Part shown: piece after piece, positions 8,552 to 18,309 of the stretch | How positions within the stretch are numbered: the stretch's first letter is position 1 | How the letters are laid out: each line of letters begins with the position of its first letter | NCBI GenBank assembly: GCA_947179195.1 | Contig: CAMXAS010000003.1 | Coordinates: 1-33,863, forward strand | Source of the DNA: an uncultured Bacteroidales bacterium | GTDB lineage: Bacteria > Bacteroidota > Bacteroidia > Bacteroidales > P3 | DNA: 33,863 bases | Direction: 5' to 3' | Made by a program: the position numbers and the translations under genes | Notes under the pieces: model-generated | Told to the model about the DNA's origin: nothing | What the model saw: the letters and a program-made list of their open reading frames with translations, nothing else | Database searches by the model: none

Positions 8552-9973
8552 ATGGATAAACAGCGTACACTTAAAGCGCCGGTCGAAATCAAAGGCGTGG
8601 GGTTGCATACGGGCCTGACGGCCACCGTGACCTTGAAACCGGCTCCTGAAAATTTTTGGTTCCAGTTCAAGCGGACCGACTTGCCGGACAGCCCGAATAT
8701 CGAGGCCCTCGTGGAGAACGTCGTGGATTCCTCGCGCGGTACCACCTTGGGCAAAGGCGACGCCCGCGTGGCCACCGTCGAGCACTTTTTGGCGGCCCTG
8801 GCCGGTTTGGGCCTGGATAACGTCTTGATAGAGACCGATACGATGGAGATGCCGATTCTGGACGGCAGCGCGGCGCCGATCGTGGAGGCGATTCTGAAGG
8901 CGGGCATCGTGGAACAGGATGCCGAACGCCGGTATTACGAATTGCCGTCGGCCGAAACCTTTACGTCCGAAGACGGCAAAATCCGCCTCAAGGCCGTGCC
9001 GTCGGAGGCGCGCGAGATGACGGCTTTGGTCGATTACGACTCCAAGGTGGTCGTGCCGCAGTACGCGCAGTTCCGTGTGGACGGCGCGGCGAACGAAACC
9101 TATTTTTCGCAGGAAATCGCGCCCAGCCGGACGTTCGTGTTCCTGCACGAATTGGAAGCCCTGTATCAGCACAACCTGATTAAGGGCGGCGATTTGTCGA
9201 ACGCCATCGTGTTTGTCGATAAAGTGTTGCCCGAAGCCGAACTCAGCCGTTTGGCCGGTTTGTTGAACAAGCCGACCGTGGAAGTGAAGGCGGAAGGGAT
9301 GCTGAACAATGTGGACCTGCGTTTCAAAAATGAACCGGCCCGTCATAAACTCATGGATATGGTGGGCGATTTCGCGTTGCTCGGATGCTATCTGAAAGCG
9401 CAGGTAACGGCCGAACGGCCGGGGCATGCCGTCAACGCCGCGTTTGTGAAACAATTGGCCAAGCGCGCCAAGAAAGACATGGCGGTAGAGGCTTTGCCGC
9501 ATTGGGATCCGAACGCCAAGCCCTTGTACGACATCAATCAGATTCAGCAGATTCTGCCGCACCGTCCGCCCTTCCTGTTGGTCGATAAAATCGTCTATAT
9601 GGATAAGGACCAGGTGGTCGGTATCAAGAACGTGACGATGAACGAAGCGTTTTTCGTGGGCCACTTCCCGGGCGCGCCCGTCATGCCGGGGGTTTTGCAG
9701 ATGGAAGCCATGGCGCAATGCGGCGGCATCTATATGCTGACGCAGTTGCCGGATCCGGAAAACTATCTGACGTACTTCCTGAAAATGGACCAAGTGAAAT
9801 TCCGCCGTCAGGTGGTGCCGGGCGACCAGTTGATTTTCAAATTGGTGCCGGCTTCACCGTTCCGCAGAGGGCTGTGCCACATGAAAGGCTGGGCCTATGT
9901 GGGCGATGAAATCGTGGCCGAAGCCGAACTGTTGGCGCAACTGTTGCGCCGCGCGGATGCGCCCAAGCTTTAA
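8552..9973 (+). CDS. lpxC: Bifunctional LpxC-FabZ: UDP-3-O-acyl-GlcNAc deacetylase / 3-hydroxyacyl-ACP dehydratase
   Basis: A 473-residue cytoplasmic fusion. Residues 1 to about 300 are LpxC, the zinc deacetylase committing to lipid A synthesis. It shows GVGLHTG (15-21), VEHFLAAL with zinc ligand His78, ILDGSA (102-107), RHKLMDMVGD with His265 and Asp269, and PGHAVN with His292. After a short linker, residues from about 325 are FabZ, which dehydrates 3-hydroxyacyl-ACP for fatty acid elongation. It shows ILPHRPPFLLVD (334-345), VGHFPGAPVMPGVLQMEAMAQ with catalytic His371 and Glu385, and VKFRRQVVPGDQL. This fusion is well known in Bacteroidota and places the two enzymes competing for or producing hydroxyacyl-ACP in one chain. 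The gene has its own divergent promoter, and its TAA overlaps the batE stop by four bases. Confidence 0.97.
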   Translation: MDKQRTLKAPVEIKGVGLHTGLTATVTLKPAPENFWFQFKRTDLPDSPNIEALVENVVDSSRGTTLGKGDARVATVEHFLAALAGLGLDNVLIETDTMEMPILDGSAAPIVEAILKAGIVEQDAERRYYELPSAETFTSEDGKIRLKAVPSEAREMTALVDYDSKVVVPQYAQFRVDGAANETYFSQEIAPSRTFVFLHELEALYQHNLIKGGDLSNAIVFVDKVLPEAELSRLAGLLNKPTVEVKAEGMLNNVDLRFKNEPARHKLMDMVGDFALLGCYLKAQVTAERPGHAVNAAFVKQLAKRAKKDMAVEALPHWDPNAKPLYDINQIQQILPHRPPFLLVDKIVYMDKDQVVGIKNVTMNEAFFVGHFPGAPVMPGVLQMEAMAQCGGIYMLTQLPDPENYLTYFLKMDQVKFRRQVVPGDQLIFKLVPASPFRRGLCHMKGWAYVGDEIVAEAELLAQLLRRADAPKL

Positions 9974-10767
9974 ATCTTTTCGATATCGGCGGCGGGAATC
10001 CAACCTTGGTTCCCGTCGCTCATTTTTATCTTGCAGTAGGGCGCTATTTCGTCCAAAATCTCCACTTTATTCCCTTCGTGCAACAGGTAGCGGACCTCGG
10101 CCGCGGCTTCGGGGCGCGCCTTGATTTCGCTTTGCGGCACCATGATGATGGCTTCGGGCTTGAAACGGGCGTTCCGTGCGGAAAGGCAGGCCATCAGCGT
10201 GATGAAGGCGGCCACCAACAGCAGGATGGCGCCGTAGAACGTCGTGCGGCGCAGACTGTAGCTGTGGCTCAGGAAATAGCAGACCAAACAGAGCAGCAGG
10301 CCGGCCGTAAGGCCCAACAACCCGCCGGCCCATGCGTCGGCCGGTAGGGCGCGCACGACGCGCTGCCAAAAGTCTTGCAGGAAGAAAGAGGGCAGGGCTT
10401 CCCGGTCGTCGGTGATTTTGGTGCGGCAGAGCGCCAGGTTCTGCCGGATGTCGGCCTGGCCGGGTTTGAGGCGGTCGGCGCGTTCGTACGACAGAATCGC
10501 GCGGCTGTAAGCGCCCGTCTTGTAATAGGCGTTGCCCAAGTTGTAATAGACTTCCCAAGCCTCATAGGGCAGAGCCAATATCTGCCGGTAGCAGTCGATG
10601 GCTTCTTCGTATTTCTCGCGTTGATAGAGCAGGTTGCCTTCGGCGTAGAGGTTGCGCGCGTAATCGACGGGCAATTCGGAGGTGGCCGCCTGCAGGCGGA
10701 CGGTTGTCAACAGGGCCGTCATCCAGACGGCACAGAGGATTGGCCAGCGGCGGATATGGGTTTTCAT
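9970..10767 (-). CDS. batE: BatE: TPR and SH3-domain membrane protein
   Basis: A 265-residue last protein of the Bat operon. It has a signal peptide or N-terminal anchor (about 8-28), TPR units at about 35-110 (YARNLYAEGNLLYQREKYEEAIDCY, then VYYNLGNAYYKTGAYSRAILSYERA), two membrane helices (about 145-165 and 175-195), and a C-terminal SH3-like domain (EVRYLLHEGNKVEILDEI ... DGNQGWIPAADIEKI). The TPR part probably docks with other Bat proteins. The reading frame is open for another 79 codons upstream, but that stretch is antisense-like overlap with batD. The ATG at 10767 forms an ATGA overlap with the batD stop, so it is the start. Confidence 0.88.
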   Translation of the reverse strand: MKTHIRRWPILCAVWMTALLTTVRLQAATSELPVDYARNLYAEGNLLYQREKYEEAIDCYRQILALPYEAWEVYYNLGNAYYKTGAYSRAILSYERADRLKPGQADIRQNLALCRTKITDDREALPSFFLQDFWQRVVRALPADAWAGGLLGLTAGLLLCLVCYFLSHSYSLRRTTFYGAILLLVAAFITLMACLSARNARFKPEAIIMVPQSEIKARPEAAAEVRYLLHEGNKVEILDEIAPYCKIKMSDGNQGWIPAADIEKI

Positions 10768-12614
10768 GCTTTCAATTCTTTGATGATGGATGAAATGACT
10801 TCCAAGGCTTCCGCGTGGAGGTCGGCCATGCTTATGCGGCTGTTCCCCTGCGGCGCGAAACGTTCGTACTCGCAATGCTCCAACGTCTGTATGAAGGCGT
10901 CGGCACTGGCTTCCGAAATGCCTTTTTCGTGTAACACCTCGCGGACGCGCGCCATCGAGAGGTCGGAAACCGGGATGTTGAATTTGCGGCTCAAAAAGCC
11001 CCAAAGCGCCTGCGACAGTTCGATATAAAAGTCATTCTTCCGGTTTTGCGTCATATAAAGGTGCCCTTTCCGCAGACAGCGGCGCGCTTCCTTGTAGGCG
11101 CGTTTGTTGCGCAGGCCGATGGAATCCGCCAATTGGGCGCGGTGGCGGCGGTAGAGCCCGACCGAAAGCGCCGTCAAGACGAACAGGCCGGCCAAGCCGA
11201 GCCACCAGCCCGTGCTGAGGAAGAACTGCCGGCCTGTCCTGAACCAATGCGGGGCGTGGGTCTGCAAGGGCGCCAGGGTTTGGGCCGCGCGGCCGTCGGC
11301 CTGCTCAGAACTGCCGGCGGGCACATACGTGCCGTCGCCCTCGCGGATGTTCAGCGCCGTTTCGGGAATGTCCACGGTGCGGTATTGGCCCGCCTGCGGG
11401 TTGAAATACGAGAACGAGAAGGCGGGGATACGGTAGATGCCGGGGCTGCGCGGCACCACGATGTATTCCATCGAGGCCTGGCCGCCGATATGGCCGTCCT
11501 GTGTCTTGTGCAGGTTCACGCGCGGTTCGTAGACGTCGAAGTCGGGCGGGAACAGGATGTGCGGCGGTTGGATCAACTCGATGTTGCCGCTGCCGCTTAC
11601 CGTAAACGTGAAGTCGATGGCTTCGTTGGCCTTGAGCGGCTTGGTCTTGTCGTACTGGAACGTCACCTTGTAATCGCCTACGGGGCCGTTGAAATCGGCG
11701 GGTCGGCCGGTTTCGGGCAACGGCCGCACGTTGAGTACCGTCGGTTTGGTGCGCACATTGGCCTGGGTGTAGGTCACGCGGTCGAAAAACGGGTCATCGA
11801 AAATATCGAAAATCGTGCCCGTGCGTTCGCGCTTCTGCTGAATGGCGGCCACCACCTCTATCTCCAACGGCTCGATCGTGAGTTTGCCGGCTTCCTGCGG
11901 GAACAGCGCCACCTTGCGCAAATCCACATAGACGTAGGGGCGGCCGTTGATGGTCTCGCGCTGCTCGTTTTCGCCCGTTTTCAGTTCCTCCGACCAGAAA
12001 CCCTTGTTGGTCGGCAGTTTGTAGATGCTGTATTGGCGCACGGGCACGGCCGTATAGAGGCGGTAGGTCACGACGACTTCTTCGCCGACATACGGGTTGC
12101 TCTTGCTGACGAAACTCCGCAGGAAAACGTCGTCGTTGCCGATTTCGCCGCTGACGGGTTGGGACGGACGGCCGCCGGGCGCGTTGCGGGCGGCACGGGC
12201 AGGATTGGCGGGTTGCGTACGCGCCGGCAACACTTTCAGCACCACGGCTTCCGTCTGATAGGCCTGGCCTTTGACCTCGATGGTGGCCGGCTCAAAACGG
12301 AATTCGCCCGCCGATTCCGGGGCGCGGAGCCGATAGGCATACGAGAGCGTGAAACTCTGTTGCATATGCCCGTTGATATAGCTGACGTTGGTCGATTGCG
12401 ACTGGGCGGGGCCGAACAGTACGTCGAAGCCCTTGAAGGCCGGTGCTTTGAAATTGCGCGACCCTTGCGCATTGACGATGAACGAGATGTCGAACGCTTC
12501 GCCGGCATAGACTTCCCGCGGCGCCTGCACTTGGAACGTGACGCCCTCTTGTGCCGCGAGGGTCGCCGGCAGGAGGCACAACAAACAGAGTAAATTACAA
12601 ACGAAACGTCTCAT
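10764..12614 (-). CDS. batD: BatD: Oxygen-tolerance family protein
   Basis: A 616-residue envelope protein. It has an N-terminal signal peptide (MRRFVCNLLCLLCLLPATLA, cleavage near AAQ). Tandem immunoglobulin-like beta domains follow (VQAPREVYAGEAFDISFIV; then YVGEEVVVTYRLYTAVPV; then KANEAIDFTFTVSGSGNIE), as is usual for BatD. A single transmembrane helix near residues 465-490 (GWWLGLAGLFVLTALSVGLY) and a cytoplasmic helical tail of about 120 residues close the protein. The start is ATG at 12614; a TTG at 12623 opens the frame but is unlikely. It follows batB-batC by two bases and overlaps batE by ATGA. The role is inferred from the family: partner of the VWA proteins in envelope stress or oxygen tolerance. 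Confidence 0.9.
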   Translation of the reverse strand: MRRFVCNLLCLLCLLPATLAAQEGVTFQVQAPREVYAGEAFDISFIVNAQGSRNFKAPAFKGFDVLFGPAQSQSTNVSYINGHMQQSFTLSYAYRLRAPESAGEFRFEPATIEVKGQAYQTEAVVLKVLPARTQPANPARAARNAPGGRPSQPVSGEIGNDDVFLRSFVSKSNPYVGEEVVVTYRLYTAVPVRQYSIYKLPTNKGFWSEELKTGENEQRETINGRPYVYVDLRKVALFPQEAGKLTIEPLEIEVVAAIQQKRERTGTIFDIFDDPFFDRVTYTQANVRTKPTVLNVRPLPETGRPADFNGPVGDYKVTFQYDKTKPLKANEAIDFTFTVSGSGNIELIQPPHILFPPDFDVYEPRVNLHKTQDGHIGGQASMEYIVVPRSPGIYRIPAFSFSYFNPQAGQYRTVDIPETALNIREGDGTYVPAGSSEQADGRAAQTLAPLQTHAPHWFRTGRQFFLSTGWWLGLAGLFVLTALSVGLYRRHRAQLADSIGLRNKRAYKEARRCLRKGHLYMTQNRKNDFYIELSQALWGFLSRKFNIPVSDLSMARVREVLHEKGISEASADAFIQTLEHCEYERFAPQGNSRISMADLHAEALEVISSIIKELKA

Positions 12615-12616
12615 GC

Positions 12617-14455
12617 TTACCAATCTTTTTCGGTATATTTCTTCCGGACGGGCATTTCCTTTTTCTTGACCTTATCCAACGTCTTTTTCTCTTGGTTTTC
12701 CAAAGCCTGCAAAATCTTTTCGGCATCATTCTTCTTGCGGCGGTCCTCCTGCGATTCGCGTCCCTGTTGCTGGTCTGGGCGGGGTTGCTGACCGTCCTGC
12801 TCGTCTTGGCCGTCCTGCTGGTTCTGCTGTCCTTGTTGCTGGTTCTGTTGGTCTTGGTTGTCCTTGTCTTGATTCTGTTGCCCGTTCTGTTGATTCTGCT
12901 GGTTTTGCTGCTCCTGTTTATCTTGCTTGTCTTGGTTCTGATTGCTTTGTTGCTGCTGTTGCTGTTGTTGAAGCAGTTTCTGCGCGTAGGCCAGGTTGTA
13001 TTTCGTATCGGCGTCGTCGGGGCGTTGGCGCAGGGCCTGTTTGTAGGCGTCCACGGCTTCGGCGTAAGCCTGCGTCTGCATATAGGCGTTGCCGAGGTTA
13101 TGGGCGGCCTGGGCGCGTTCTTTCTTATTCAGGTACGGGCTCTGCAACACCTTGTTGTATTGTTCCGCGGCCTGCGGGTAAAGCCCTTGTTTGTATTGGG
13201 CGTTGCCGAGGTTGTACAGCAGGCGGCTGTTCGTGGAGTCGAGCGTCAGCCCCTTGCGGTACATTTCTTCGGCGGCCGGATGGTCTTCCAACTCGTAGAG
13301 GCGGTTGCCCTGATGCGTCAGCGGCACCAAGGTTTGGGCCTGCAGGCCGGAGGCGGATGCGGCGGCCAGGCACAGCACCGTCACGAGCAGGGGCGCCGGC
13401 GCTTTTTTCGCGTTTTTCATGCCGAAAATGTGTTTGCGGTTCAAACGGCGGTGTTGTTTCGTAAAGATGAGGACGTCGAGCAGCAGGCAGGCGACGGCCA
13501 CCCACAGCGGCCATTGATAGCGGCTCTCGTAGTCGGATATGTCGCGCTGTTCCAGCAGGGTCTTGTCCAAGCGGTTGATTTCGTCAAACACTTTGCCGAT
13601 GCCGGCCGACGTATTGTTGGCGCCCACGTAACTGCCCTTGCCTTCGGCCGCAATCTGACGCAGCATCTCTTCGTTCAACTTGGTCATGACCGTTTGTCCG
13701 CTGCGGTCTTTCTTATAATCCACGATCCGGCCGTTGGCGTAGATGGGAATCGGCCCGCCCTGCGGCAAGCCCATGCCGATGGTGTGGACGGCGACGCCGG
13801 CTTTGGCCGCCCGTTGCGCCGCGCTCAGCGCCGCGGCCTCATGGTCCTCGCCGTCGCTGATGACGATGATGGCCTTGTTGTGGGCGTTGTCGCGTTCCTC
13901 TTGCTCGAAACTCTGCATACAGAGGTCGATGGCCGCCCCGATGGAGGTGCCTTGGGTGCTGATGTCGTCGGTGCTGATTTCGCTGATAAACAGTTTGGCC
14001 GCGCCGTAGTCGCTCGTCAGCGGCAGTTGCAGGAAGGCGTCGCCGGCAAAGACGACCAGACCGATGCGGTCGTTGCCCAGGCGGTCGAGCAGACGGATGA
14101 GCGCCTGTTTGGCGCGCATGAGCCGCGAGGGTTGTATATCCTCGCAGTTCATGCTGTTGGATATATCCAGGGCCACCATCAAGTCCACGCCTTTGCGCTC
14201 CGCCTTTTTGACCGTCGTGCCCATCTGCGGGTTGGCCAGCGCGAGCACGAGACAGATGCCGGCCAGGAGCAGGAGCAGGTATTTGACGTATTGTTTGCCG
14301 ACCGAATAATCCGGCGACAGCGCGATGACCAACTGCGGGTCACCCAAACGGGCAAAACGTTTGTATTTCCGCCGTATGACGAACACGACCGCCGCCAAGA
14401 GCGGCAGAAAGACCAAAAGGCCGTATAGCCATTGCGGGTTTTCGAATCTGAACAT
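12617..14455 (-). CDS. batB: BatB-BatC fusion: membrane VWA protein joined to a TPR protein
   Basis: One 612-residue reading frame covers what are usually two genes. BatB part (1-345): helix 1 at about 9-27, helix 2 at about 56-76, a VWA domain with MIDAS DISNS (Asp97, Ser99, Ser101), TQGTSIG and SDGEDHE, and a third helix at about 315-331 followed by KQHRRLNRKH. BatC part (346-612): it begins with Met346 (ATG at 13420-13418) and a classical signal-peptide-like stretch ending GLQA|Q near 373. TPRs follow (LTHQGNRLYELEDHPAAEEMY, SRLLYNLGNAQYKQGLYPQAAEQY, AHNLGNAYMQTQAYAEAVDAY), then a 70-residue Gln/Asn/Asp tract and a Lys-rich end. The start at 14455 gives a TAATG overlap with batA. Both halves have ordinary family lengths, so nothing is truncated. 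Internal re-initiation at 13420 is possible. Confidence 0.88.
   Translation of the reverse strand: MFRFENPQWLYGLLVFLPLLAAVVFVIRRKYKRFARLGDPQLVIALSPDYSVGKQYVKYLLLLLAGICLVLALANPQMGTTVKKAERKGVDLMVALDISNSMNCEDIQPSRLMRAKQALIRLLDRLGNDRIGLVVFAGDAFLQLPLTSDYGAAKLFISEISTDDISTQGTSIGAAIDLCMQSFEQEERDNAHNKAIIVISDGEDHEAAALSAAQRAAKAGVAVHTIGMGLPQGGPIPIYANGRIVDYKKDRSGQTVMTKLNEEMLRQIAAEGKGSYVGANNTSAGIGKVFDEINRLDKTLLEQRDISDYESRYQWPLWVAVACLLLDVLIFTKQHRRLNRKHIFGMKNAKKAPAPLLVTVLCLAAASASGLQAQTLVPLTHQGNRLYELEDHPAAEEMYRKGLTLDSTNSRLLYNLGNAQYKQGLYPQAAEQYNKVLQSPYLNKKERAQAAHNLGNAYMQTQAYAEAVDAYKQALRQRPDDADTKYNLAYAQKLLQQQQQQQQSNQNQDKQDKQEQQNQQNQQNGQQNQDKDNQDQQNQQQGQQNQQDGQDEQDGQQPRPDQQQGRESQEDRRKKNDAEKILQALENQEKKTLDKVKKKEMPVRKKYTEKDW
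12761..12970 (-). repeat. Low-complexity Gln/Asn/Asp-coding tract within batC
   Basis: About 70 codons encode almost only Gln, Asn, Asp and Gly with a few Lys and Glu. They start with eight consecutive Gln and include repeated QQN, DKQ and DGQ units. On the plus strand this appears as CTG/TTG/TCC-rich DNA. It is a disordered linker between the TPRs and the basic C-terminus, and a likely site of replication slippage and length variation. Confidence 0.85.
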
Positions 14456-15453
14456 TAGGGTAGGGTTTTGAAGACGAACAGCCGGCCTAAGAGTTCCAGA
14501 AGCAACAAGCCTAACGCGAGCCACAGCAAGGGCGCGTATTCGTCGGTGTGCGACTCGTAGGTCATAACCTCTATCTTGCTCTTTTCCAGTTGGTCGATTT
14601 CTTTGAAAATGTTACGCAATTTGTTTTGGTTCGTGGCGCGGAAATAGTTGCCGCCCGTATTCTGCGCCATGGCCTGCAACAGGGCTTCGTCGATTTGCAC
14701 CTCCACGTTTTGGTATTGGATGCCGAACGGGGTCTGGAACGGATAGGGGGCGAACCCCTGCGTGCCGACGCCGATGGTATAGACGCGTATGCCGTACAGT
14801 TTGGCCATGTCGGCGGCCGTGAGCGGGTCGATGGCGCCGCGGTTGTTCACCCCGTCGGTCAGCAGGATGATGGTCTTGCTTTTGGCCGTGCTGTTGCGGA
14901 TGCGGTTGATGGCCACCGCCAGCCCGTCGCCGATGGCCGTGCCGTCTTCAATCACGCCGCTTTTCAAGGCCTTGAGGCGGTGTTGCAAGATATGGTGGTC
15001 GATGGTCAGCGGGCATTGCGTAAAGGCTTCGCCGCTGAACGCCACAAGCCCCATGCGGTCGTCGGGCCGCCCCGCGATAAAGTCGGAGGCCACTTTCTTG
15101 GCCGCTTCCAAGCGGTTGGGCGAGAAGTCCTCGGCCAGCATACTGCCGGAGATATCCATGGCCAGCATGATGTCGATGCCCTCGATGTGGCGGCTGTTGT
15201 TCTTCAGGTGGCTTTGCGGCCGCGCCAACGCGACAATCAGCAGGATGAGGCAGAGCGTGCGCAATACGTAAAGGAGCGGATAGCAGCGTTGCCGCCCCGT
15301 CTTTTTAAGCCGGCCCGCAAAACCGGTGTCGGAGAAGTGCAGACGCGGGTACGTCTTTTTCTCTTGCGCGATGTACCAATAGATGAGGAACGGAATGATA
15401 CACAGCAGCCAAAGGTAGTGCGGGTTGGCGAAAGTCAAATCATTCAGGTTCAT
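14455..15453 (-). CDS. batA: BatA: membrane VWA protein
   Basis: A 332-residue membrane protein with two N-terminal helices (about 12-29 and 57-77). A VWA domain follows from about 93, with a full MIDAS motif DISGS (Asp100, Ser102, Ser104), a conserved DGTAIGDG Thr loop and LLTDGVNNRG. A C-terminal helix (LLWLALGLLLLELLGRLFVF) closes it. The VWA domain is expected in the periplasm and to bind a divalent metal and a protein partner. The start is ATG at 15453 (MNLNDLTFANPHYLWLL matches family N-termini); the frame extends nine codons further. It overlaps the preceding gene by 14 bases and touches batB through TAATG. Confidence 0.93.
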   Translation of the reverse strand: MNLNDLTFANPHYLWLLCIIPFLIYWYIAQEKKTYPRLHFSDTGFAGRLKKTGRQRCYPLLYVLRTLCLILLIVALARPQSHLKNNSRHIEGIDIMLAMDISGSMLAEDFSPNRLEAAKKVASDFIAGRPDDRMGLVAFSGEAFTQCPLTIDHHILQHRLKALKSGVIEDGTAIGDGLAVAINRIRNSTAKSKTIILLTDGVNNRGAIDPLTAADMAKLYGIRVYTIGVGTQGFAPYPFQTPFGIQYQNVEVQIDEALLQAMAQNTGGNYFRATNQNKLRNIFKEIDQLEKSKIEVMTYESHTDEYAPLLWLALGLLLLELLGRLFVFKTLP

Positions 15454-16426
15454 GGGTGCTTGTTTTATGCTGTGCCACAAATTGCCATATCAGGCGGAAG
15501 CAATCCTCGTGTTCCGACGGCTGCGGCTCGCTCTTGGCGAACTTGACCAGGTCGGCGGTGCGGAAGACGGTCTCCAGGCGGTGGATGTCGTCCTTGCGGT
15601 CGGGGTATTGACGCCGCAGGTTCTCGATACATTCGTCCGACGTCATTTCGACGGCGGCGATATGGTATTCGTCGGCCAGGAACACGCGCAGGATGTCGGT
15701 CAGTTCCGTATAGTATTCCTTGACGCGGTTATGTTGCCAAAGTTCTTTGTTCTTGAGGGTCTTGAGGTTGGCCAACGCGAGATCCACGGGTGGGATGGCG
15801 GGCTTGGGCGCCGAGAAGACCGGCAGGTTGCGGCGTCTGCGCCGCCGGTAATACCAACCGAAGACGGCGGCCGCCAACGCAAGCAGGATAGCGCTTATCC
15901 AAACGTAATGGCGGCGGATATAGTCGGCCAGGCGTTCCCAGACCGAAACCTGCTGAATCGGTTTGATGTCGCGGATATCCTGTTCGAAGTCCACGTCGGG
16001 TTCGTAAATGTTGACCCAAAGCGTGTCGGTGTCGTAAATCAGAATCTGCCCGTCTTCGAACACGCGGAAGGAAACCGGCGGAATGGCGTAGGTGCCGGCC
16101 GTGTAAATGGCGAACGGATAGCTGGCGCGCAGGCGGAACAGGCCCGTCGTCTTGTCGTAAGCGGTGTCGTAAGTGGGCGTGGCGGAGAAAAACTCCAGGC
16201 CGGGGTAGGCTTGCGGGTCTAAAACCGGAAACAGCACATGGCGCGGGTCGGTGCCTTCGTATTGCAGTTTGAGCGAGAGGCTGTCGCCTATCCAGGCCGC
16301 GCTGTCGCAGAACACGCGCAAGGCGGGGGCGGCGTTGGCCCGTCCCAAACCGATGCAGGCGACGGCGGCTGTCAGCCACAGCCCCGCCCGGTATATTCCC
16401 CGTTTGAAAAACGAAACGGCCGTCAT
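15440..16426 (-). CDS. Bat-operon envelope protein with one transmembrane helix, function unknown
   Basis: A 328-residue protein between the DUF58 gene and batA. It has a signal peptide (RAGLWLTAAVACIGLGRANA), then a periplasmic beta-rich domain of about 140 residues (SAAWIGDSLSLKLQYEG ... YAIPPVSFRVFEDGQILIYDT), which resembles the Ig-like units of BatD. A transmembrane helix follows at about 174-192, then a strongly basic RRRRRR stop-transfer segment and a cytoplasmic helical domain of about 125 residues (YYTELTDILRVFLADEYHIAAVEMTSDE). That arrangement mirrors the BatD tail and the DUF4381-like proteins found in other MoxR loci. It probably links the periplasmic and cytoplasmic parts of the complex. 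I can name no catalytic residue. Confidence 0.8.
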   Translation of the reverse strand: MTAVSFFKRGIYRAGLWLTAAVACIGLGRANAAPALRVFCDSAAWIGDSLSLKLQYEGTDPRHVLFPVLDPQAYPGLEFFSATPTYDTAYDKTTGLFRLRASYPFAIYTAGTYAIPPVSFRVFEDGQILIYDTDTLWVNIYEPDVDFEQDIRDIKPIQQVSVWERLADYIRRHYVWISAILLALAAAVFGWYYRRRRRRNLPVFSAPKPAIPPVDLALANLKTLKNKELWQHNRVKEYYTELTDILRVFLADEYHIAAVEMTSDECIENLRRQYPDRKDDIHRLETVFRTADLVKFAKSEPQPSEHEDCFRLIWQFVAQHKTSTHEPE

Positions 16427-16441
16427 GGTATCAATGGACTT

Positions 16442-17308
16442 TTAAATTCGGTTAAACATCGTAATCAGCGGTTTGACATAGTCCTCGCCCGTGGCGATAT
16501 CCGCATGGCGGATGCCGTATTTGACGAGCAGACCGTGTGTCCGCTTGGTCTGCGCCTGACGGTAGGCCGCATAGGCTTGCCGGTTGGCAGCGGAATGCGT
16601 GTCAATCATCACGGATTGGCCGCTTTCGTTGTCCGTTACGCGGAGCAGGCCCACGTCGGGCAGTTCGGTTTCCAAGGGGTCGTACAACCGGATGGCCGAC
16701 AGGTCGTGCCCCTTGGAAACGATTTTGAGCGCGTCTTCATAGGGGTGTTTGTCCATGAAGTCGGACAGCAGGAACACCGTGCATTTGCGTTTGTGGACGT
16801 TGCGGAAGTAGCGCAAGGCCTCGCCGATGTTCGTGCCCTTGTGCTGCGGCTTGAATTCCAACAACTCCCGTATGATGCGCAGGATGTGCTGCCGGCCCTT
16901 TTGCGGCGGGATGTATTTCTCCACCTCCGAGCTGAAAAACAGCAAGCCCACCTTGTCGTTGTTGGAAATGGCCGAAAACGCGAGGATGGCCGCGATTTCC
17001 GTCATGGCGAGGCGTTTGCTCTGTTCGCGCGTGCCGAATTCGTTCGAGGCGCTCACGTCGATGAGCAGCATCACGGTCAACTCCCGTTCCTCTTCGAACA
17101 CCTTGACATACGGTTTGTGGAAACGCGCCGTCACATTCCAGTCGATGAAACGGACGTCGTCGCCGAAGCCGTATTCGCGCACCTCGCTGAACGCCATGCC
17201 GCGCCCCTTGAACGTGCTGTGGTATTGTCCGGAGAAAATCTGATTCGAAAGATCCTTGGTCTTGATTTCGATTTTCCGGACTTTCTTCAATAAATCGGAC
17301 GTTTCCAT
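16442..17308 (-). CDS. DUF58-domain protein (VWA-like), MoxR partner
   Basis: A 288-residue cytoplasmic protein with no signal or membrane segment. It shows the DUF58 hallmark GQYHSTFKGRGMAFSEVREY (27-46), then GDDVRFIDWNVTAR (49-62), and a VWA-like core with a complete DxSxS metal site (Asp84, Ser86, Ser88). Later come GTNIGEALRYF and LLSDFMD. It sits five bases downstream of moxR, the standard pairing, and is thought to be a substrate or adaptor of the MoxR ATPase. The start at ATG 17308 gives the expected N-terminus. Confidence 0.92.
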   Translation of the reverse strand: METSDLLKKVRKIEIKTKDLSNQIFSGQYHSTFKGRGMAFSEVREYGFGDDVRFIDWNVTARFHKPYVKVFEEERELTVMLLIDVSASNEFGTREQSKRLAMTEIAAILAFSAISNNDKVGLLFFSSEVEKYIPPQKGRQHILRIIRELLEFKPQHKGTNIGEALRYFRNVHKRKCTVFLLSDFMDKHPYEDALKIVSKGHDLSAIRLYDPLETELPDVGLLRVTDNESGQSVMIDTHSAANRQAYAAYRQAQTKRTHGLLVKYGIRHADIATGEDYVKPLITMFNRI

Positions 17309-17313
17309 AAGGC

Positions 17314-18309
17314 TTAGGGCACTTCTACCGTATTGAGGATTTCGTTCAGGATATCCTCCGAGTGGATGTTTTCGGCTTCGGCTTCATAGGTCAGGCCGAT
17401 GCGGTGGCGCATGACGTCGAAGCAGACGGCGCGGATATCTTCCGGAATGACGTAGCCGCGGTGTTTGAGGAACGCATAGGCTTTACCGGCCAAGGCCAGG
17501 TTGATGCTGGCACGCGGTGAGGCCCCGTAAGCGATCAGCGGTGCGAATTTTTCCAGATGATAGCGGTCGGGATAACGCGTGGCGAACACGATATCCGTGA
17601 TATAGTTCTCGATTTTCTCGTCGGCGTACACCTCTTTCACGAGCGCGCGGGCCTTCCGGATGGTCTCGACCGAAACCACCGGGTTGATTTGCGGCTTCTC
17701 CTGGCCGATGTTCTGCCGGATGATTAGTTTCTCTTCCTCCTTGCTCGGGTAGCCGATGACGACCTTGAGCATGAAACGGTCCACCTGCGCTTCGGGTAGC
17801 GGATACGTGCCTTCCTGTTCGATGGGGTTCTGCGTGGCCAATACGAGGAACGGGTCGTCCAGCGGGAACGTCTCCTCACCGATGGTTACCTGGCGTTCCT
17901 GCATGGCTTCCAGCAGCGCGCTCTGCACCTTGGCCGGCGCACGGTTGATTTCATCGGCCAACACGAAGTTGGCGAAAACGGGGCCCTTCCGGCTTACGAA
18001 ACGCTCGTCCTTCTGGCTGTAAATCTGCGTGCCGATGACGTCGGCCGGCAACAGGTCGGGCGTGAACTGGATGCGGCTGAAGTTGGCGTCGATGGCCTGC
18101 GCCAGCGTTTTGATGGCCAACGTCTTGGCCAAGCCCGGCACGCCTTCGAGCAGGATATGGCCGTTGGCCAGCAGGCCGATCAGCAGGCGTTCCACCATGG
18201 CTTTCTGCCCCACGATGTTCTTGTTCATTTCCAATGTGAGCAAATCCAAAAAGGCGCTTCCTTTTTCGATTTTCTCGTTGAGTTCTTTGATGTCTATAGG
18301 CTCTGCCAT
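17314..18309 (-). CDS. moxR: MoxR-family AAA+ ATPase
   Basis: A 331-residue cytoplasmic AAA+ ATPase. Walker A is GVPGLAKT (56-63), Walker B VLADE (116-120), sensor 1 lies in LATQNPIEQEGTYPLPEAQVDRF (158-179), and an arginine finger or sensor-2 region occupies the C-terminal lid (YGASPRASINLALAGKAYAF). MoxR proteins act as chaperone-like remodelers for VWA proteins, and here the gene heads the whole DUF58/Bat operon. The ATG at 18309 follows a 45-base leader from a TATATTTG box. The upstream region carries a palindrome and direct repeats. Confidence 0.95.
   Translation of the reverse strand: MAEPIDIKELNEKIEKGSAFLDLLTLEMNKNIVGQKAMVERLLIGLLANGHILLEGVPGLAKTLAIKTLAQAIDANFSRIQFTPDLLPADVIGTQIYSQKDERFVSRKGPVFANFVLADEINRAPAKVQSALLEAMQERQVTIGEETFPLDDPFLVLATQNPIEQEGTYPLPEAQVDRFMLKVVIGYPSKEEEKLIIRQNIGQEKPQINPVVSVETIRKARALVKEVYADEKIENYITDIVFATRYPDRYHLEKFAPLIAYGASPRASINLALAGKAYAFLKHRGYVIPEDIRAVCFDVMRHRIGLTYEAEAENIHSEDILNEILNTVEVP

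Follow-up and report, generated by a model that had tools for sequence, protein, structure and literature searches.

A fused batB-batC gene of Bacteroidota keeps a conserved predicted signal peptidase site at its seam

When two genes share one reading frame, do their products also remain one protein? The question is raised by the window (the whole stretch of DNA that was analysed, 33,863 nucleotides), in which batB and batC are joined. An earlier note, made from the sequence alone, had placed BatB and BatC in a single frame with a signal-like segment at their junction, and had left two outcomes side by side, a chain cut by signal peptidase or one that stays joined as a four-helix tether. We indeed found a 612-codon frame that encodes VWA and TPR domains in one chain, and the residue numbers given for the junction (346-373, ending LQA/Q374) proved exact. 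The note gave no strand: the gene is on the minus strand, with its start ATG at 14455 and its stop at 12619-12617. Its parts are the following.

12617-14455, minus strand: fused batB-batC gene, a single open frame for a precursor of 612 aa and 69.0 kDa
13421-14455, minus strand: BatB part, residues 1-345, with predicted helices at about 7-37, 52-74 and 314-334 and a vWA domain
13423-13462, minus strand: basic, presumably cytoplasmic tail of BatB (KQHRRLNRKH...), read from the sequence; predicted n-region of the internal signal
13337-13420, minus strand: internal signal-peptide segment, residues 346-373, with the ancestral ATG of BatC (Met346) at 13420
13334-13339, minus strand: predicted signal peptidase I site Ala373/Gln374, the segment ending ...GLQA373/Q374
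12620-13336, minus strand: predicted mature BatC, residues 374-612, 28.1 kDa, with TPR repeats and then a Q/N-rich tail

Pfam matches to VWA (residues 91-229, E = 9e-18) and TPR (382-494, above the Pfam cut-off) lie within the one chain, and the BatB part has in addition a BatA_N match of 24.8 bits, slightly below the cut-off of 25.9. A profile match links this part to the PDB structure of a BatB vWA domain, 3ibs (E = 7e-77), and 4jdu is also related. The MIDAS motif DxSxS occupies residues 97-101, and D97, S99 and S101 are invariant among the 18 fused proteins aligned below. With such a vWA domain between predicted membrane helices, and a place in a moxR/bat operon, the first part of the chain has the features expected of BatB. 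The second part aligns with separate BatC proteins, whose genes lie immediately 3' of batB in 129 relatives; as a TPR protein with predicted export, encoded directly after BatB, it has those expected of BatC. Both domains lie in one uninterrupted frame, which makes this a fusion of the type found in Leptospira biflexa. The BatC tail (12620-12967, minus strand) contains a Q/N-rich stretch (about 62% Q+N in 78 residues) and, after it, a charged segment whose last residues are KDW. An antisense open frame of 625 aa (12551-14428, plus strand), very rich in L, V and Q, runs over the fused gene; the Q-rich tail is mirrored in it, and it seems to be a side effect of codon bias.

The surroundings are those of a standard bat operon in which batB and batC are joined. 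Its genes are all on the minus strand and nearly touch each other.

17314-18309, minus strand: moxR AAA+ ATPase (Pfam)
16442-17308, minus strand: DUF58 protein (Pfam)
15440-16426, minus strand: membrane protein between the DUF58 gene and batA, with a signal-like N-terminus ending in ANA/A and no Pfam match
14455-15480, minus strand: batA (Pfam VWA and BatA N-terminal domain), whose stop overlaps the ATG of batB by one base (TAATG)
10764-12614, minus strand: batD (Pfam BatD), whose signal peptide likewise ends in ...LAAQ in a signal scan
9970-10767, minus strand: batE-like TPR protein (Pfam TPR)

The fused frame is shared with other genomes. Two other species of the genus have the same unbroken frame (L004 and L005, with 96% and 93% identity), and so do two sister genera, in 15 genomes with 51-57% identity. 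These 18 genomes (the three species of the genus and the 15 others) form one clade in the BatB tree, with a support of 99. No stop interrupts the frame, and the codon-position GC keeps a steady phase across the junction, which leaves no signature of a frameshift. The earlier note had named a frameshift or a missed stop near 13421 as the danger to its reading; none was found, and since the frame is conserved in 18 genomes, neither a local error of sequencing nor a missed stop can explain it.

To place the fusion among its relatives, we used a BatB tree of 167 proteins, 38 of them fused and 129 with a separate batC adjacent, built by a quick LG+G4 analysis and containing some long branches. The fused or separate state changes at least 11 times on this tree, and 10 of the changes are forced by well-supported branches; the count does not establish the direction, fusion or fission. 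The survey of relatives that the earlier note had suggested thus reveals that the fusion recurs. Besides the window clade, several groups within a second genus of its family are among the fused lineages, as are three Prevotella/Bacteroidaceae groups, a further family of the order, and single genomes of Saprospiraceae and of a verrucomicrobial lineage. When 297 genomes were sampled across the phylum, fusions came to light in at least one more family (five genomes) and at least two genera of yet another. Among the separate cases, 32 of 129 have a batC frame that opens right after the batB stop and in the same frame, so that one stop-codon change could yield a fusion.

A BatB-BatC fusion is not new as such, since one has been published for L. 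biflexa (PMC3557215). The useful new result is the conserved seam. We aligned the 18 fused proteins of the window clade with MAFFT (about 55% identity between genera) and took residues 345-382, which span 51 columns, as the seam. The mean majority frequency is 0.41 in these columns compared with 0.73 over the whole chain, and it is 0.33 over the 40 columns of the signal segment itself. Gln374 is the sole invariant column among the 51, and Ala373 is present in 17 of the 18 proteins. Of the 37 fused Bacteroidota proteins, 36 have Gln and one has Glu at +1, and 35 have Ala, one Gly and one Ser at -1; the site picker rewards a +1 Gln and two of the 37 sites were set by hand, and the MAFFT result is independent of this. 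The protein with Glu (L050) is the single one of its kind, and its near relatives L052 and L053 have Gln. Both codons are used for the +1 Gln (19 CAG and 17 CAA), hence it is the residue that is kept and not the DNA. Eight more fused Bacteroidota proteins, outside the tree and read by eye, all have Gln at this position. In these sequences, the seam changes fast, and nothing else in it is nearly as conserved as the -1 Ala and +1 Gln of the predicted site.

The same residue is found where BatC is encoded separately: 76 of 102 non-lipoprotein BatC have a +1 Gln (with the same Gln-favouring picker), and the motif is thus not relaxed by fusion. Six fusions from outside Bacteroidota were read by eye: their sites are A-x-A-like, though weak in L110, and the +1 residues are S, A, A, N, N and D, with Gln in none of the six. 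This indicates that the Gln follows the processing rule of the phylum rather than the structure of the TPR protein BatC.

This rule, the Q-rule of Bacteroidetes, states that most substrates begin with Gln once signal peptidase I has cleaved them, and that this Gln is then cyclised (PMC5837995; PMC10653852). Inner-membrane proteins are listed as untested for this pyroglutamate rule (PMC5837995). Enzymes for both steps are encoded in the host genome, namely a signal peptidase I (Peptidase_S26 above the cut-off, with recognisable Ser and Lys motifs) and a lipoprotein glutaminyl cyclase that matches solved bacterial glutamine cyclotransferases (E = 1.8e-97 to PDB 6qro). Signal ends of the A/Q type were also found in the batD product and two other proteins when the window's few exported proteins were scanned. 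The junction itself has the predicted make-up of a Q-rule substrate, with n-, h- and c-regions, a small -1 residue and a conserved +1 Gln. Its weak point is the -3 position, where the window and many relatives have Leu, a residue less favoured there by signal peptidase I.

Other types of signal occur in the relatives. Several genera of the same family have a separate BatC with a lipobox (e.g., FTSC/DKEK) and no signal peptidase I site (L025, L026, L028, L138, L139, L143, L147, L153, L164, L168, and others), which suggests that BatC is probably a lipoprotein there. The rows of this type from the window's family lie in one clade. A BatB-BatC fusion of Rhodothermales (L078) has a lipobox-like LLATGC at its seam, so that its internal signal would be that of a lipoprotein.

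The hydrophobicity of the junction also bears on its function. The maximal 19-residue mean has a median of 1.65 in fused junctions and 1.75 in separate BatC signals, and helix 3 of BatB, with a median of 2.27, lies above the fused junctions (p = 2e-8, a value that overstates independence since the rows are related). Across the fused set, the junction is signal-like and not anchor-like. In an AlphaFold2 model (pTM 0.59), the vWA and TPR bodies are predicted with confidence and the junction with low confidence, the pLDDT being below 50 in the loop 335-353; the model thus favours neither a tether nor a cut chain. The analysis supports the topology proposed in the earlier note, where the last helix of BatB would end in a basic cytoplasmic tail and a signal-like segment would then re-enter the membrane. 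The BatB tail is also basic in the fused Bacteroidota relatives. In three fusions (L106, L137, and L070), the predicted cytoplasmic loop between the last helix of BatB and the signal has shrunk to only a few residues, so that the basic tail of BatB alone would be the n-region.

Of the two outcomes left by the earlier note, the comparative evidence favours cleavage, given the Ala-Gln at the seam, the Q-rule and the signal-like hydrophobicity. In the other outcome, the former signal would now be an ordinary helix, and BatB and BatC would stay covalently joined in an uncut four-helix chain. The open frame and the predicted topology permit it, and in the window alone the junction is nearly as hydrophobic as the protein's own helix 3 (1.74 vs 1.78). 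However, nothing would oblige a segment that is buried and never cut to retain Ala-Gln while its neighbours all vary, the +1 Gln obeys the signal peptidase rule of Bacteroidetes, and fused junctions are no more hydrophobic than separate signals. We thus regard a permanent tether as unlikely.

A second alternative is that translation of BatC also, or mainly, begins separately at Met346, whose ATG is retained, and that the frame is open across the junction only incidentally. An ATG with a lysine-rich start is indeed present in all three species of the genus, but this carries little weight because the genus is too similar (93-97%). Among the 37 fused relatives, 23 have no ATG between the last helix of BatB and the h-region, and 10 have none of ATG, GTG and TTG there, such that in these genomes BatC could hardly come from anything but the fused chain. 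Hence, the earlier statement that the junction keeps BatC's own Met holds for the window (ATG at 13420) and fails as a general rule. The loss of the start codon in many fusions shows that separate initiation of BatC is not generally needed, and we consider this explanation quite improbable, even more so than the tether. Finally, in many relatives a single base change would suffice to join the two genes, but a lost stop or a frameshift in a fragmented assembly (220 contigs) was rejected as practically inconceivable, since the fusion is shared by the 18-genome clade and about 10 other lineages with a steady coding phase at the seam.

Our preferred reading is that BatB-BatC is a polyprotein, which signal peptidase I probably cuts between residues 373 and 374. 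BatB would insert with three helices, so that its vWA domain is periplasmic and its basic tail cytoplasmic. This tail would supply the n-region of an internal signal by which BatC passes through Sec, and signal peptidase I would then cut Ala373/Gln374 on the periplasmic side. One product would be BatB (residues 1-373, about 41 kDa), to which the used signal would add a fourth helix at the C-terminus; the other would be BatC (374-612, about 28 kDa), whose N-terminal Gln would be cyclised to pyroglutamate. In this scheme, fusion would fix the synthesis of the two proteins at 1:1 and at the same place, and mature BatC would be unchanged. With somewhat less assurance, we lean towards the view that selection keeps the internal signal cleavable in about 10 separately arisen BatB-BatC polyproteins, for co-production at a fixed ratio and then separation. 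If true, this would be a recurrent bacterial polyprotein processed by signal peptidase, and BatB and BatC would be matched partners that have to separate.

The function of the widespread Bat system is not yet settled. The repeated fusion of exactly BatB and BatC is good evidence that the pair works together, and the preserved cut site suggests that they must act as separate chains. The fusion also provides a natural test case for the action of signal peptidase I on an internal signal and for the pyroglutamate rule of Bacteroidetes. For annotation, the lesson is that a fused gene does not necessarily imply a fused mature protein.

Among the closest known systems is that of L. biflexa, where, according to the accessible part of the published study, a moxR/bat operon likewise contains batB and batC as one gene and a single chain has both vWA and TPR, whereas the genes are not fused in pathogenic leptospires (PMC3557215). 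The same part of the text mentions bat fusions in Borrelia burgdorferi, Spirochaeta thermophila, and Francisella tularensis Schu S4, reports no oxidative-stress role upon bat deletion in L. biflexa, and contains no discussion that we found of an internal signal peptide or cleavage (PMC3557215). Unlike the fusion of this spirochaete, those of Bacteroidota carry the A/Q site of their phylum. Borrelia BB0173 was considered as a fused BatB of known topology and set aside, since the accessible description is of a three-helix vWA protein, with no BatB-BatC fusion. The separate BatB and BatC of Bacteroides and relatives have the same domains and gene order, and their BatC has an N-terminal signal. 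In contrast to these two genes, there is one here, with an internal signal for which the BatB tail would be the n-region. A literature search for bacterial polyproteins with internal signal peptides returned mainly viral cases. A bacterial parallel is FbcH, the cytochrome b/c1 polyprotein of Bradyrhizobium japonicum, in which a multi-span protein is followed by a second exported protein and the internal signal is cut by signal peptidase. The proteins are unrelated to BatB-BatC, and cleavage is experimentally known for FbcH whereas here we infer it. Finally, the seam resembles Q-rule substrates in its short hydrophobic segment, -1 Ala and +1 Gln (PMC5837995, PMC10653852), but the signal of the usual substrates is N-terminal, whereas here it follows a predicted three-helix membrane protein.
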